Positions 13,473 through 22,205 of a stretch of DNA of 64,000 nt are shown here, piece after piece. A program made the translations under genes and the position numbers. Numbering within the stretch: position 1 is the stretch's first letter; each line of letters starts with the position of its first letter. This DNA comes from Haladaptatus paucihalophilus DX253 (GTDB lineage Archaea > Halobacteriota > Halobacteria > Halobacteriales > Haladaptataceae), in NCBI RefSeq assembly GCF_000376445.1, contig NZ_AQXI01000004.1, positions 248,001 to 312,000 on the forward strand. The letters run 5' to 3'. The notes below the pieces were generated by a model. It was not told where the DNA came from. It saw only the letters and a program-made list of their open reading frames with translations, and did no database searches.

Positions 13473-13523
13473 CATATGGGATAAGTTTGGGTATATCGCT
13501 AATTGCGATGTGAGAAGTTCGAC

Positions 13524-14131
13524 CGATGTTCACGATTCGTAGAGTTCGTTGGACAGCCTTGTTTCTCACCTCTGAACCGACGTAAGAAGACCACGTACTT
13601 TGAAAGTCGTGCGATGTTTGTAATTCGTACGAAGTCTACGATTCATAGGAATCGTACAGTTCGTTAGAATAGCTTTGTTTCTTAGCCCCTGAACCGACGA
13701 CGGCAAGTCTCGTAGCTTAAGATTCTCGCGAGGTTTACGATTCGCGAGATTCGCTGATAACAGTTATACAATCCTGATGAGACGGTTGGAGCATAGGCAC
13801 GCGCATAGTTGACGAGCTTTGGGATTCGTGCGATGTTTACGATTTGAACGATGTTTACGGTTCGTACGACTCGTAGAATTCGTTAGGGGCAGCCCGTCTC
13901 TCAGCTTGTGGACTGGTGGAGAAGATTTTGTACAGTGAACCGTCACAGGGTCAAGTCCCGAGGGGGAGGCCGTACGCTCTACCGGTAGACTTCGTACGAT
14001 GTTTACGATTCTCGAGATTCGTACGATTCGCACATAACGTTTATACAATTCTGATGAGATGGTTGGAACAGAGGCACTCGCGAAGTTTACGAACTTCAAG
14101 ATTCAAGCGATGTTTGCGATTCGTACGAATC
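13524..14131 (+). repeat. array of CGATGTTTACGATTC repeats (putative centromere of partition locus 1)
   Basis: Copies or near-copies of CGATGTTTACGATTC occur at 13524, 13613, 13729, 13831, 13849, 13997 and 14108, often flanked by TTCGTACGA-type palindromes. Larger imperfect units are also repeated: 13756-13850 resembles 14030-14130, and 13549-13590 resembles 13660-13700. The array ends about 40 bp before parA. Such arrays next to parA are the expected form of a partition site; binding by the partner protein is inference. Confidence 0.7.
13935..13990 (-). mobile_element. IS200/IS605-type (tnpB) end remnant
   Basis: The reverse complement reads CTACCGGTAGAGC, then CTCGGGACTTGACCCTG and ACGGTTCAC. 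It aligns with 22427-22480 (CTCTACAGGCGGAGC, CCTCGGGGCTTGACCCCGAGG, CGGTTCAC). This conserved segment resembles the 3' terminal part of haloarchaeal tnpB elements. No transposase remains here; it lies inside the partition repeat array. Confidence 0.5.
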
Positions 14132-14171
14132 TCACGAATCGTGGAGTTCGTTGAGTGCAGGAGAATCAATC

Positions 14172-15053
14172 ATGGCAGGGGAACACAACAGCGGAGAACC
14201 GCGCGCCGTTTCTGTCGGCGTACTCAAAGGCGGGTTCGGAAAGACAACGACGGCGATTAACCTCGCTCGTGAGTTAGCTCATCGAAACGGCTCAGCTCTC
14301 GTTGTCGACCTCGACGACAACGGCCACATGAGCCAGAACCTCGGATTCACAGAACAGTATAGTGCCGAAGAGAATCACGCCGAAGCCGTTCTTATCAACG
14401 GAGAGGATCCAACGCAATACATTCAAACAGTAAGCCACGGGCTCGATATTTTCCCTGCCCACGTGCAACTCGAAGACGTCCAGAGTGGGCTAAAGGAAGC
14501 GACAATGGGAACGACACGACTCAAGGAGAACCTCATCAATCCGCTTCTCGGTGACGAGTACGAGTACATTGTGGTCGACTGTCCAGCAAATCGCGGGAAG
14601 TTGAACGACAACGCCATGTACGCAACAGGGAACATTATCATCCCCCTTCGCGCAGAGAGCGGGTATGAAAGCGGGCTCTCTAGCACTGTTCAACGGCTCG
14701 TTCAAGAAGCACGGCAGTACTTTGAGTTGAACATCCTCGCGATTACACCCACGGACTTACAAGATCGTATCGACCAAGATACCCGCGACCGGTCACTCCT
14801 CAAGGAGATCAACAATCGGGATGGTGTTTCAAAGCTCGTACCGAACTATGCACGAATAACCAGTGATGATTGGGAAGCGATCGATCAAGGGAAACAAAAC
14901 GGTAATCTTCCGGGGATTCGACACCGAGCGGCGATCGATCGTGCGCACGATGAAGGTGTTCCACTTCGAGACTACGATGAGGCGTGCGATCAGCTCGAAG
15001 CCTACGACGAGCTCGCTCAAATCGTCGAGCAGGGGGAGGTGGTGCACAAATGA
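14172..15053 (+). CDS. parA: ParA family ATPase (partition system 1)
   Basis: 293 residues from MAGEHNSGEP. The deviant Walker A motif is KGGFGKTTT (about residues 19-27) and the Walker B region is YIVVDCPANRGKLNDNAM. Start at 14172 leaves the signature near the N terminus, so there is no separate DNA-binding extension (type Ib-like). Overlaps the partner gene by ATGA (15050-15053), so the two are translationally coupled. ParA ATPases move plasmid copies by binding nucleoid DNA and a partner bound at centromere repeats. Homologous to 61921-62793. Shares PNYARIT and GIRHRAAIDRA-type blocks with it. Confidence 0.92.
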   Translation: MAGEHNSGEPRAVSVGVLKGGFGKTTTAINLARELAHRNGSALVVDLDDNGHMSQNLGFTEQYSAEENHAEAVLINGEDPTQYIQTVSHGLDIFPAHVQLEDVQSGLKEATMGTTRLKENLINPLLGDEYEYIVVDCPANRGKLNDNAMYATGNIIIPLRAESGYESGLSSTVQRLVQEARQYFELNILAITPTDLQDRIDQDTRDRSLLKEINNRDGVSKLVPNYARITSDDWEAIDQGKQNGNLPGIRHRAAIDRAHDEGVPLRDYDEACDQLEAYDELAQIVEQGEVVHK

Positions 15054-15454
15054 CTGCGTTTGACGATCTCGAAAATGCAATCAACGAGGGAACAGAGAAG
15101 CCATCAATTTCGAGCAGTTCGTCCGAGTCTGGCGCATCGGAAGAATCGCAAACATCGAACGAATCGCACGAGTCGCACGAATCGAAAACGTCAGAAGAAC
15201 CAAAAGACCCACGAGAGACGCCCGCATTCGAGTTTTCTCCAGATCTCCGACGGAGTATCTACACACGCGAAGAATCGTGGCAGGAGCTTGAGGATGCACG
15301 TGATTTAGAGATGACGCGAGAGTTGCGGGATGCTGGTGTCCGGAATCACGAGAGTCGTGAAGTTCACGATGCGATGGTTCGGTTAGCGGCGGAAAATCCC
15401 GAAAAGATGGCACAGTTAATCCTTGACGCACGCGGTGTCGACGAAGAGCAGTAG
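15050..15454 (+). CDS. ParA partner (putative centromere-binding protein), system 1
   Basis: 134 residues. Residues about 18-50 are a low-complexity Ser/Glu/His linker. The C-terminal 75 residues (FEFSPDLRRSIY, WQELEDARDL, REVHDAMVRLAAENPEKMAQLI) are homologous to the partner at 61508-61924 (REIHDAVLTLAAEEPERLVEII). No ParB HTH motif is recognisable. Position and ATGA overlap with parA make it the ParB-functional analogue. The linker DNA contains an exact reverse-complement copy of the upstream 15-bp repeat (15143-15157), so the gene probably carries a binding site for its own product. Confidence 0.8.
   Translation: MTAFDDLENAINEGTEKPSISSSSSESGASEESQTSNESHESHESKTSEEPKDPRETPAFEFSPDLRRSIYTREESWQELEDARDLEMTRELRDAGVRNHESREVHDAMVRLAAENPEKMAQLILDARGVDEEQ
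15143..15185 (-). repeat. partition repeats inside the partner gene
   Basis: GAATCGCAAACATCG at 15143-15157 is the exact reverse complement of the repeat at 14108-14122. It is followed by ACGAATCGCACGAGTCGCACGAATCG-type units to 15185, the same TTCGTGCGA half-sites found upstream. In the protein these bases encode the SQTSNESHESHES linker. Confidence 0.65.
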
Positions 15455-15660: not shown

Positions 15661-15719
15661 CGCTCGCTGACGCTCCCCCCTTAAGACGTGCGAGAATGTC
15701 ACAGTCGTTTAACCGTTAG

Positions 15720-15733
15720 GATGTTTAAACATC
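15720..15733. repeat. 14-bp perfect palindrome GATGTTTAAACATC with partition-like half-sites
   Basis: GATGTTTAAACATC is perfectly self-complementary and contains GATGTTTA, the core of the upstream partition repeat. It is followed by CGTGCGATTCT and CGTGCGAATCGTACGAATC. A downstream outlier of the partition-site family, about 270 bp after the partner gene. Confidence 0.5.
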
Positions 15734-15865
15734 GTGCGATTCTACCGACTCGTGCGAATCGTACGAATCTCAGACATCGCAGCAGTCAGAAAATTTGCGA
15801 ACTACGCTTACAGACCAGTCCTGGCACGATCTGACGGAGAGCAAACTCGAGAAAAACGATTCGGT

Positions 15866-15942: not shown

Positions 15943-16556
15943 TCAGCTGTTTTGAAGATCAAACACGATATTCTGCTTCGTTTTTGGCTGTTCAAATACA
16001 GTATCGAGAACCATATCCGAGTCGCGCAAGAGGGAGCGTTCCCGATAGCTCCCTTCACTCTTGCCACCATCAGTATGCCGATTTTCAGTGACGTCACTAA
16101 AGGCCCATACCTTCAACAGTTCCAGCACTCGCTGGTGACTGAGAGGATCAGTTCCTTCACTCTTACAGACGTCTTCGTACACACGGTAGATCTCGCCTGT
16201 GTTGAATGCTTGTTTCAGGGAAGATTTCTGGAGATAGGCGAGCGCGAATAGGATATATTTCGAATGGGGAGTCGATCCCCGAATTAGCTCTTGGAACCGC
16301 GACATTTCCGCATAATCCTGTGCTGCATCGACATGCTCCTCTGTGACACTAGAAACGCTATTCCGAGCAGCCAACTTTCCAGTGCTCGAGAGAATTACAA
16401 TTGCTTTCCGTGCGTCACCATGCTCACGCGCGGCAAGCGCTGCTACGCGTGGGATAACACCATCTTCGAGAACATCGGGTTGGAATGTATCTCGCCGTTT
16501 ACTCAGAATTTCACGGATTTGCCCGGCATCATACGGATGGATATGGACGGTTAGTG
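15943..16556 (-). pseudogene. truncated Orc1/Cdc6 initiator (C-terminal half only)
   Basis: The - strand frame opens at 16556, right after a TGA, with PLTVHIHPYDAGQIREILS. This is the AAA+ lid region, followed by sensor-2-type HGDARKAIVILSSTGKLAARN and the winged-helix DNA-binding domain (SRFQELIRGSTPHSKYILFA through SYRERSLLRDSDMVLDTVF). Walker A and B, roughly the first 200 residues of a 400-residue protein, are missing. The break lies only about 20 bp from the first origin-box repeat. An internal ATG at 16374 could still give a winged-helix-only protein. Confidence 0.82.
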
Positions 16557-18087: not shown

Positions 18088-19089
18088 ATGATTCACGATG
18101 CTCGCGTCCTGCAACCACAGTTCGTCCCGGAAGAGGTCGAGCATCGCAACGCCGAGATCAACACCCTCTCGAATACACTCAAACCCATCATGGACGGTCA
18201 AAACGGCGAAACATCGCTCCTATTGGGACCGTCCGGCGCGGGGAAAACCTGTATCGCGAAGTTCACCATCGAGCGACTACGTGAGAACGTTCTCGATATC
18301 GACCGCCAGTACGTCAACTGCTGGCAGGATTACACGCGATTTCAAGTCCTCTATCGTATTCTCGAAGGCATTGGCGAAACTGTCAACATCCATCGTCGAT
18401 CGACACCGAAAGACGAACTCCTCGACCGTCTTCAGCGGTACGATGGACCACAGTTCATCGTCATCCTCGACGAAGTCGACCAACTCGAAGACAAGAGCGT
18501 CTTGTATGATTTGTATCGGATGCCGACCATCTCGATGGTACTCATTACGAACCGCGAGGACGAGCTATTTTCCCATCTCGACGGTCGATTGGCCAGCCGG
18601 TTGCGGACGTGTGTTCGCGTTCCGTTCGAAAAGTACCACCTCGACGAACTCGTTTCGATCCTTCGTGCTCGTGTCCAATGGGGACTTTCGGAAGGCGCAA
18701 TCGGAAACCAGGAACTCGAACTGATCGCAGACGCAGCAGCGGGTGATGCACGGGTCGCAATCGGCATTCTCAGGAACGCGGCACGTCGCGCCGACCAGAG
18801 TGGTCTGGATTACATTTCAACCGATATCGTTGATGAGGCAATCCCGGATGGCCAGCGCGAAGTTCGGCAGAAAACGATCAGTCAACTCAACGCTCATCAG
18901 CGCGCCCTCTACGACATTTTGGAAGAAGAGGGTGAACTCAATCCAGGGGAACTCTACGAGGCATATCAGGAACGCGTCGAGAATCCGAAAACAAATCGGA
19001 CAGTCAGAAATCACCTCTCGAAAATGGAGCACTATCGGCTCGTCGTGGCCGATGGGAAGAATCGAGCGCGAACATACCAACTCCGCTGA
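18088..19089 (+). CDS. Orc1/Cdc6-family AAA+ ATPase
   Basis: 333 residues. Walker A GPSGAGKT (about residues 48-55), Walker B FIVILDEVDQ (about 125-134), sensor-type ITNRED, arginine region SRLRTCVRVPF, and lid GDARVAIGILRNAARRAD. The C-terminal winged helix includes LNAHQRALYDILEEEGEL and RTVRNHLSKMEHYRLV. It is shorter than replicative Orc1/Cdc6 (about 400) and belongs to a divergent group. It can bind DNA and load or recruit replication factors. It lies 1.2 kb from the putative origin and heads the PolB cassette, so it may serve either. Confidence 0.87.
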   Translation: MIHDARVLQPQFVPEEVEHRNAEINTLSNTLKPIMDGQNGETSLLLGPSGAGKTCIAKFTIERLRENVLDIDRQYVNCWQDYTRFQVLYRILEGIGETVNIHRRSTPKDELLDRLQRYDGPQFIVILDEVDQLEDKSVLYDLYRMPTISMVLITNREDELFSHLDGRLASRLRTCVRVPFEKYHLDELVSILRARVQWGLSEGAIGNQELELIADAAAGDARVAIGILRNAARRADQSGLDYISTDIVDEAIPDGQREVRQKTISQLNAHQRALYDILEEEGELNPGELYEAYQERVENPKTNRTVRNHLSKMEHYRLVVADGKNRARTYQLR

Positions 19090-19842: not shown

Positions 19843-20101
19843 TTCGACGTATCGTGACCTCCTTCGGGCGATGGAGAATCGATGGGGGGAGTATCGACGC
19901 GGCCTTCGTCGTGCTGACCAGCAGGTGTTCGACCGGCTGTTCGAGTTTGCACGGGCACACGCGGATGCGAGCGGATTGCAGACGCCTCGGCTCGTAGAAA
20001 TCCCCGCTCTCGTCTCGATTATCCTCGAACAGCAAAAGCAGATTGACGACCTCGAAGACCGTCTCGACCATCTCGAGCAGGATCTCAACGATCGGGAATG
20101 A
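19829..20101 (+). CDS. small helical/coiled-coil protein of the PolB cassette
   Basis: 90 residues, almost entirely helical. The C-terminal third (IILEQQKQIDDLEDRLDHLEQ) is a clear coiled coil. N-terminal RDLLRAMENRWGEYRRGLRRADQ is amphipathic. It overlaps the preceding gene by 14 bp and ends 4 bp before the polymerase start, so it is tightly coupled to both. Likely a bridging subunit between the RecA-like protein and the polymerase; no family name recognised. Confidence 0.72.
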   Translation: MGRTNSTYRDLLRAMENRWGEYRRGLRRADQQVFDRLFEFARAHADASGLQTPRLVEIPALVSIILEQQKQIDDLEDRLDHLEQDLNDRE

Positions 20102-20105
20102 GACG

Positions 20106-22205
20106 ATGGTGTACAAAATCGACTCCGTTGACGGCGACGTGTTCAGGTGGTCGGTAACCGAGTCGGGGGTGGAATGTGAAGTAGATGAATCGTACACGCC
20201 GACGATCCATGTGTCCGTCCATGGTGATGGCGACTTTTCGACGGCACGTGCTGCACTTCGGGACCATCCTGCCGTTACGCGGGTTGCTGTGGTTGAGGGA
20301 CGCGTGAGCTTTCGGCACGACCCCGAGCAAGTACTCCGAGTGGATGTAGTTGACCTCAAGGCGGTGAATTCAGTGGCACGAATGGTGAGCAAGTGGGGCT
20401 CTCCTGGTGAGTATCGCTGCTACAACGTTGATTTCTCGCGAGAGTTCCGCTACTGTCTCGAAGAAGGAATCGATCCGTTGCCGAAACACGAACTCTCGAA
20501 GATGCAGATTGCTGTGTCGGAGACGGAGCTTGCGAGTGAGCAAGTTACTGAACTTACGATCGACGATGAGATGGTGACTGGGAGTGGTGCGGACGTGTTA
20601 ACGGCATTGTCGGCTCGTGTTGAGTCGGTTGACCCCGACGTTCTGTTCCTGAACACCAGTGACCTCATTCCCATCCTCTTCCAGCAGGCCGACCGACTCG
20701 ACGTAGAGTTCCAGCTTGGACGACGACCCGGATGGCAGCAGTTGGCGGGTGAATCGACCTACGAAAGCTACGGGCAAGTCGGGCACTCCCCGGCACGCTA
20801 CAATCTGCCCGGTCGGGTGATCATCGATGGCTCGAATACGTTCATGTGGAATCAGACGAATCTCGACGGCTGTCTGTATCTCGTCGAGCAGTCGGGCAAA
20901 CCGCTGCAGGAGTTGGCATGGTCCTCGATTGGGAATGTTCTGACCGGGATTCAGATCCAAGAAGCTCGTGAACGGGATGTGCTTGTCCCGTGGCGTTCGT
21001 GGCGACACGAGCAGTTCAAAACGATGCGCCAGTTGCACGACGCCGACCGAGGTGGGTTCACGTTTACACCGGACGTCGGGCTGCACGAGGATGTCCACGA
21101 ACTCGACTTCTCCTCGTTGTATCCGAGTATCATCGTCACGCGGAATGTGAGCCCTGAGAAGATTCGGTGTGAGTGCCATGCTGGTCGAGAAGATGTGCCG
21201 GGCATCGGGTATTCGATTTGTGATGAGCGTGGGTACCTTCCGGATGTGCTTGAGCCGTTGATCGAAGATCGTGATGCGATTAAAGCCGAGATTCGGGAGA
21301 CTGAGGACGAAGAACGTCGCGACGAGTTGGAAGGCCAATCGAGTGCGATCAAGTGGATTTTGGTCTCCTGTTTCGGCTATCAGGGGTTTTCGAACGCGAA
21401 GTTCGGACGGATCGAGTGCCACGAGGCGATCAACGCGTATGCTCGGGAGATTCTGTTGGAGACGAAAGCAGTGCTCGAGGAGAACGGGTGGCGCATTGTG
21501 CATGGTATCGTCGATAGTGTGTGGGTGACGCCGATCGAAGGCGAGGAACAGACGTCGCTTTCGGAGCTTGTCTCGGAGATTTCTGAAGAAGTGGAAATTC
21601 GGCTCGAACACGAAGCGCACTACGACTGGATTGCGTTTGTGCCATTGCGTGATTCGGATGCTGGTGCCTTGACGAAGTACTTCGGGAAGGTCGCTGATGA
21701 GGACGCGTACAAGTATCGGGGCATCGAGTGTCGCCAGCGGAGTACGCCGTCGTATATCGATGAGGCGCAGAAAGCGTTGATTCGAGCGGTGGATGCGTAT
21801 CGTGATCCAGAGGCGGTGTGTGGGGAACTACGGTCGTGGGTCAATCGTCTTGAGCGTGGGGTAGTCGATCCGAGTGAGTTGGTGATCACGAATCGTGTTT
21901 CGAAAAAGCGGGAGGACTACACGCAATCGACGCGGAGTGTGGCGGCACTGGAGCGGGCGGCGGATTTGGGGTTGGCGCGTGCGCCTGGTCAGAGTGTCTC
22001 GTATGTGGTGGTGGACGATTCGAAGAAATCGCGGGAGCGGGTGAAATTGGCAAGTGAGGAGGTAGACGAGTATGATGTCGAGTTTTATCGGGAGTTGTTG
22101 GTTCGTGCGACAGCGAGTGTATTGTCACCGCTTGGGTGGCGAGAATTGGATATTGAACGGGAGTTAGAGCAGTATACCGAGTCGAGTTTGACGTCGTTTA
22201 GGTAA
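20106..22205 (+). CDS. polB: divergent family B DNA polymerase (PolB2-type)
   Basis: 699 residues from MVYKIDSVDG. Polymerase motif A is LDFSSLYPSIIV with Asp334. Motif B is in IKWILVSCFGYQG with Lys416. Motif C is HGIVDSVWV with Asp470, so the usual YGDTDS has lost its first aspartate. The exonuclease region (about residues 130-220) lacks the DIE motif, so proofreading is probably absent. Archaeal PolB2 proteins share these changes. Start 4 bp after the coiled-coil gene. Likely an accessory, repair or translesion-type polymerase rather than the main replicase. Confidence 0.9.
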   Translation: MVYKIDSVDGDVFRWSVTESGVECEVDESYTPTIHVSVHGDGDFSTARAALRDHPAVTRVAVVEGRVSFRHDPEQVLRVDVVDLKAVNSVARMVSKWGSPGEYRCYNVDFSREFRYCLEEGIDPLPKHELSKMQIAVSETELASEQVTELTIDDEMVTGSGADVLTALSARVESVDPDVLFLNTSDLIPILFQQADRLDVEFQLGRRPGWQQLAGESTYESYGQVGHSPARYNLPGRVIIDGSNTFMWNQTNLDGCLYLVEQSGKPLQELAWSSIGNVLTGIQIQEARERDVLVPWRSWRHEQFKTMRQLHDADRGGFTFTPDVGLHEDVHELDFSSLYPSIIVTRNVSPEKIRCECHAGREDVPGIGYSICDERGYLPDVLEPLIEDRDAIKAEIRETEDEERRDELEGQSSAIKWILVSCFGYQGFSNAKFGRIECHEAINAYAREILLETKAVLEENGWRIVHGIVDSVWVTPIEGEEQTSLSELVSEISEEVEIRLEHEAHYDWIAFVPLRDSDAGALTKYFGKVADEDAYKYRGIECRQRSTPSYIDEAQKALIRAVDAYRDPEAVCGELRSWVNRLERGVVDPSELVITNRVSKKREDYTQSTRSVAALERAADLGLARAPGQSVSYVVVDDSKKSRERVKLASEEVDEYDVEFYRELLVRATASVLSPLGWRELDIERELEQYTESSLTSFR

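Follow-up and report, generated by a model that had tools for sequence, protein, structure and literature searches.

A putative plasmid partition operon of Haladaptatus whose upstream 9-bp-phased array recurs in the linker-coding DNA of the partner gene

Why does a repeat that stands upstream of a plasmid parA gene recur, exactly and on the opposite strand, within the coding sequence of the adjacent gene? The DNA analyzed here (hereafter the window, 64,000 nucleotides) is a Haladaptatus plasmid region located on a 317-kb contig, and its nearest named records are Haladaptatus plasmids. The parA gene (14172–15053, plus strand) encodes a deviant Walker ATPase with the sequence KGGFGKTTT close to its N terminus, and its assignment as a ParA of this type agrees with matches to Pfam AAA_31 (3.8e-28) and to the ParA-like PHROG family (3e-40). 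This ParA is devoid of an N-terminal DNA-binding domain. The gene overlaps by ATGA with a partner gene (15050–15454, plus strand), which encodes a candidate centromere-binding protein of 134 amino acids consisting of an N-terminal segment, a linker predicted to be disordered (about residues 21–48), and a helical C-terminal domain. As argued below, we consider it fairly probable that the two genes form a ParA-type plasmid partition operon, in which a putative centromere and operator array extends into the DNA coding for the linker of its own binder.

The surroundings contain several other frames of interest. For an open frame on the minus strand (15943–16374), the sole match is the Cdc6/Orc1 C-terminal winged helix, and the frame appears to be an orc1/cdc6 gene in truncated form. 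A longer orc1/cdc6 frame, a likely replication gene near the par locus, is located at 18088–19089, and beside it lies a 720-amino-acid open frame (20043–22205) in which motifs resembling those of B-family DNA polymerases were recognized by eye. A second, divergent parA-partner pair is present on the same contig (61511–62791, minus strand), the partner of which is 37% identical. Because its upstream repeats belong to another family, of the ACAATAGGT / CTACCTATTG type, the two par systems would be independent.

Upstream of parA, where the initial annotation had counted at least seven repeats, we found eight sites that match CGATGTTTRCGATTC with at most two mismatches (13524, 13612, 13630, 13729, 13831, 13849, 13997, and 14108), and those at 13997 and 14108 are exact. 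The window as a whole contains 10 matches versus 0.49 expected, a number attained by none of the shuffled sequences. In the 4.3-Mb genome, exact CGATGTTTRCGATTC occurs in only three copies (13997, 14108, and 15143), all within a 1.2-kb stretch, and the reversed control pattern does not occur. The repeats noted earlier are thus real, and that description had missed their 9-bp phase, a further cluster downstream of the partner gene, and their conservation across the genus. The phase corresponds to three codons, and the array is built from two unit types, GATTCGTNC and GATGTTTRC. Its outermost units on the plus strand, GCGATGTGA... and CGATGTTCACGATTCG, occupy 13505–13540. Five clusters follow on the same strand. 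Cluster 1 (13587–13687) is a run of degenerate 9-bp-phased units with periodicity at lags 9 and 18 that includes the motif matches at 13612 and 13630. The others were delimited by periodicity together with motif matches: cluster 2 (13701–13755) reads CGAGGTTTACGATTCGCGAGATTCG, cluster 3 (13808–13892) reads GATTCGTGC GATGTTTAC GATTTGAAC GATGTTTAC GGTTCGTAC GACTCGTAG, cluster 4 (13983–14052) holds the exact CGATGTTTACGATTC at 13997, and cluster 5 (14095–14153), with the exact CGATGTTTGCGATTC at 14108, lies immediately 5′ of parA. Cluster 4 flanks the sequence TTTATA (14040–14045, plus strand), which, by match to the archaeal consensus, is a candidate for the TATA box of the parA operon and lies between array clusters. 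The presence of the array on both sides of this TATA-like box at 14040 fits a combined centromere and operator. We also observed that a 127-bp block holding a promoter-like TATACAATNCTGATGAGA segment is duplicated with 76% identity and a spacing of 277 bp (13739–13865 and 14016–14142).

Of 392 genomes sampled across the order of the host, 189 encoded a partner homologue. The loci taken from these genomes gave a comparison set of parA-partner pairs from haloarchaea that numbered up to 153, and in each pair the partner gene lies directly 3′ of parA. In the 800 nucleotides upstream of parA, the top period was 9 or 18 bp at 71 of 76 loci, and 70 of the 76 were significantly above block shuffles. 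In downstream regions, these periods ranked on top in just 23 of 80. Centromere-like repeats near the operon, as expected of a ParA-type partition system, are therefore present in the form of 9-bp-phased arrays. The units themselves vary by lineage and include GTACGATTC, CACCTAAGC, CAATAGNNC, TATTGNACC, and ACCTACTGY. Similarity between arrays followed the partner (partial Mantel r of 0.41 given ParA) more than ParA (0.18 given the partner). The Haladaptatus unit is common to five Halorussus loci (L038, L044, L046, L048, and L049), in which ParA is 40% and the partners are 49–59% identical (array similarity of 0.42–0.61), and it is absent from L062, in which ParA is 72% and the partner 49% identical (array similarity of 0.09). 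Because the array unit tracks the partner over ParA, and because residues of the partner co-vary with the unit (see below), the partner is the likely centromere-binding protein. L038 has a second array of the GATTCGTAC type about 100–165 nucleotides 3′ of its partner gene, directly beyond it and not inside the gene as in Haladaptatus, which suggests that sites flanking parA on both sides may be useful.

Within the folded domain of the partner, the alignment columns with the largest effects on array type were 67 (1.1), 65 (0.7), 110 (0.6), and 69 (0.6), compared with a largest permuted maximum of 0.44; because permutation does not fully remove phylogeny, and because column 110 ranks level with 69, this association is strong, not decisive. 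Columns outside the segment 65–69, including 110, also co-vary with array type. Among 129 loci, partners with Arg67 are found with TACGA/ATTCG arrays, those with Gln67 mostly with AGGTA/ACCTA/AATAG, and those with Ala67 with AAATT/ACAGT. Residues 65, 67, and 69 are thus a possible recognition code, and their alternation suggests a DNA-reading strand, as in ribbon-helix-helix proteins. The AlphaFold model of the partner monomer consists of three confident helices (mean pLDDT of 91) and contains no strand. No matches were obtained for the partner in Pfam, among PDB sequences, or in fold searches, which were empty with two models of the protein, and its C-terminal domain has no recognizable relative among solved structures. 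The ParB N-terminal CTPase domain is absent from the 134-residue protein, which matches no ParB family, and a scan of viral contigs returned no relative.

The exact reverse-complement copy inside the partner gene reported initially was confirmed by the genome motif search (CGATGTTTGCGATTC on the minus strand, 15143–15157, coding for E-S-Q-T-S). It is not a lone 15-mer, but part of a phased array (15137–15199, minus strand) that codes for the linker sequence SEESQTSNESHESHESKTSEE and is embedded in a wider periodic run (15115–15228). The stretch from 15137 to 15193 reads TCGGAAGAA TCGCAAACA TCGAACGAA TCGCACGAG TCGCACGAA TCGAAAACG TCA, in which both unit types (GATTCGTNC and GATGTTTRC) are present on the opposite strand and in phase. 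Read as codon triplets, the units are SxE (TCG NNC GAR) and SQT (TCG CAA ACA). Since 9 bp equal three codons, the gene can acquire or lose units of the array and stay in frame. Another phased cluster is located downstream on the minus strand (15716–15793), one frame of which gives DSCESYESQTSQQSE...DQSWHDLTESKLE, and it is also present in locus L031. This cluster looks like what is left of a second partner gene, including a linker with an array of its own and the start of a folded domain.

Across nine Haladaptatus genomes, all 22 exact copies of CGATGTTTRCGATTC lie at the parA locus, either upstream of parA or antisense in the linker. Seven of the eight Haladaptatus partner genes have at least one exact copy in the linker, always antisense, and the eighth has a copy with one mismatch. 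The one genome of the nine without a close partner has no exact copy. The linker is nevertheless the fastest-evolving part of the partner, with a pairwise identity of 69% versus 90% for the C-terminal domain, a rate about twice that of the folded domain, and indels of 9 and 18 bp. Phased serines are encoded by TCG in 53 of 71 cases (75%), compared with 18 of 144 (12%) in parA and the C-terminal domain; the count pools non-independent species, and taken individually six of the eight genes give p<0.006. Synonymous recoding produces the exact 15-mer with a probability of 0.001–0.0075 (0.1–0.75%). On the genome counts, the nine-genome distribution, and the recoding rates, we rejected the idea that the 15-mer arose by chance. 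With linker divergence of up to 33%, the real array scores are 82–124, versus means of 10–61 under neutral mutation of the linker of the window. The background of this score is 5–7, and parA windows have a mean of 4.9 and a maximum of 16. The excess over the neutral expectation is significant in every relative but the closest (six of seven), with p-values that are approximate because the simulation used uniform random substitutions and pooled upstream 9-mers. The linkers share on average 14.7 9-mers with their own upstream array, 13.5 with those of other species, and 1.2 with unrelated loci. Recent gene conversion from the upstream array to the linker was rejected, as the match to the own array is not in excess (14.7 versus 13.5).

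Other tests separated the linker less clearly. When codon counts were preserved, the gene of the window gave weak results (p=0.25 for 7-mers and p=0.026 for 9-mers), and plain codon bias as the sole cause was rejected by the codon comparison and the recoding, the within-gene shuffles being weaker. In an own-versus-other test with 7-mers, Haladaptatus reached a z of about 2–3 at best, and loci above z=3 were equally many for parA and for the partner. Synonymous divergence in the linker is not below that in the rest of the gene. Per-gene best-alignment tests gave moderate separation only, because the amino-acid repeats carry part of the match. Taken together, the conservation, codon, neutral-mutation, and shared-9-mer results favor an upkeep of putative binding motifs in the linker.

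The own-versus-other scan of 147 loci picked out the Halocatena locus L152. The 7-mers of its own short upstream array cover 129 nucleotides of its partner gene, compared with 9.5 in other partner genes (z=12), and both its units (AACCTAAGG and GATGATGAG) and its peptide (DEQPQDAEDSQYDEE) are unlike those of Haladaptatus. A like pattern, weaker against its own array, is seen in another Halocatena species (L161). The linker codons of Halocatena end in A or T, unlike those of the rest of the operon: in L152, GAT accounts for 19/21 versus 22/39 and CCT for 4/4 versus 2/19, and in L161, GAT accounts for 16/16 versus 20/37 elsewhere. Because these two loci have a like design with a different motif and peptide, the intragenic array probably arose at least twice. 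L083, from another family, was considered as a third case on a likeness seen by eye and is tentative only, as its 8-mer match is not above controls. L171/L166, L182, and L094 were also flagged by the scan and were rejected on inspection, which revealed no phased array in the linker. Most homologous loci have no intragenic array, and an array in the gene is therefore not needed by the system generally. The correspondence between array and coding sequence that the initial annotation expected of homologous loci is thus missing from most of them and present in two genera, which makes it a lineage-specific trait. Its proposal that one stretch of DNA serves as both linker and putative site gains from the comparison, because all eight Haladaptatus genes keep the motif despite fast linker turnover, the codons are shifted toward the motif, and Halocatena provides a further case.

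A Ser-x-Glu linker might have been selected as protein alone, with the DNA match arising as a by-product of amino-acid repeats and codon bias. The repeats do explain part of the match, and the window is not extreme when the codon counts of the gene are kept. However, this reading does not account for the TCG preference of the phased serines (75% versus 12% in parA and the C-terminal domain), for an exact 15-mer that appears in fewer than 1% of recodings, or for the Halocatena peptide DEQPQDAED, which matches its own, different array through atypical AT-ending codons; we regard it as highly improbable. The array could also belong to a replication origin and be read by Orc1/Cdc6 (18088–19089) or by ParA, instead of the partner, which would suit its iteron-like appearance and the likely replication gene close by. 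We give this idea a very small probability, because the unit correlates more closely with the partner, and with particular residues of it, than with ParA, because the arrays adjoin parA-partner operons at 71 of 76 loci on many replicons, and because ParA has no N-terminal domain with which to bind DNA.

It is a more substantial, if still unlikely, alternative that array DNA spread into a tolerant linker and is now idle, so that the partner may bind it and nothing depends on it. A linker that is predicted to be disordered, evolves fastest within the gene, and changes by 9 or 18 bp would tolerate such an insertion; most homologous systems do without one, and a decayed copy lies downstream. On the other hand, the motif content has been kept in all eight species beyond the level of neutral mutation, ongoing copying would have produced an excess match to the own upstream array, which is not seen, and two genera carry the feature with different motifs.

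We therefore return to an array that extends into the gene of its own reader. The arrays, their phase, the match with the coding sequence, its conservation, and the co-variation of unit and partner are established by sequence. From these we infer that the partner binds the array, that it binds the intragenic copies as well, and that this binding has an effect. The small partner would use its C-terminal domain, probably the stretch near residues 65–72, to read the 9-bp-phased array that precedes parA and would serve as centromere and operator. The array appears to have grown, separately in Haladaptatus and in Halocatena, into the DNA encoding the disordered linker of the partner. The partner probably binds its own gene too, where a further group of sites lies about 1 kb away from the upstream one. 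With both sets bound, a larger or bridged partition complex, operon feedback, or both could result. We consider the chances evenly balanced for a broader claim. On this view, the coding sequence of a haloarchaeal partition protein itself contains functional centromere units, where the need for DNA sites dictates the linker repeats; at least two genera, whose sites differ, would have acquired this arrangement independently; and these loci would represent a widespread, so far undescribed par class in which the centromeres are 9-bp-phased and the residue-to-site code can be read. The analysis offers a candidate class of centromere that is present in many replicons of haloarchaea, together with a candidate for its binder and residues on which the specificity of that binder may depend. 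With the intragenic copies, nature would provide a clear example of a DNA-binding site shaping a low-complexity linker, which is made easy by a period equal to three codons. Archaeal centromeres and the segregation of many replicons at once in halophiles are among the outstanding questions in the field (PMC5120986).

Partition systems with comparable features are known. Bacterial chromosomal parS sites may lie within genes, including spo0J of Bacillus, so that a partition site is part of a coding sequence; each is a single 16-bp palindrome and forms no array that would shape a repetitive linker in the protein. The delta-omega/ParABS system of pSM19035 has short, closely phased repeats upstream of the par genes that serve as centromere and operator, but these are 7-bp heptads in bacteria, read by a ribbon-helix-helix protein and not intragenic. 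In SegAB of Sulfolobales and other archaea, the partner binds sites located 5′ of the gene for the ATPase (PMC5120986, PMC12284271). Both SegAB and the present system combine a ParA-like ATPase with a small archaeal DNA-binding partner (putative here), overlapping genes, and upstream sites. In contrast, SegB is a ribbon-helix-helix protein that recognizes the palindrome TCTAGA S TCTAGA, whereas the loci described here have direct arrays of 9-bp-phased units of other sequence, without palindromic TCTAGA-type sites, and a partner without a match among solved proteins. The AspA-ParB-ParA system of pNOB8 is an archaeal plasmid par system whose binder recognizes a site upstream of the operon and spreads (PMC5120986). 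It differs in having three genes and a 23-bp palindrome, and phased arrays or intragenic copies have not been described for it. Our search of the open-access literature found no report of an array in a partition-protein linker or of a haloarchaeal class of 9-bp par arrays. The initial statement that no such dual use had been described accordingly holds for partition genes in the literature searched and not for the principle, which is already known from the lambda origin: its iterons are located centrally within gene O, and two extra iterons in relatives add 13 amino acids to O (PMC7466680). Lambda O is a replication initiator acting at an origin, not a partition protein, its iterons are longer than 9 bp, and there is no homology. 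We know of no separate upstream array of O sites in lambda. What the two cases share is that the iterated sites of a protein lie within its own gene, where additional units lengthen the protein.
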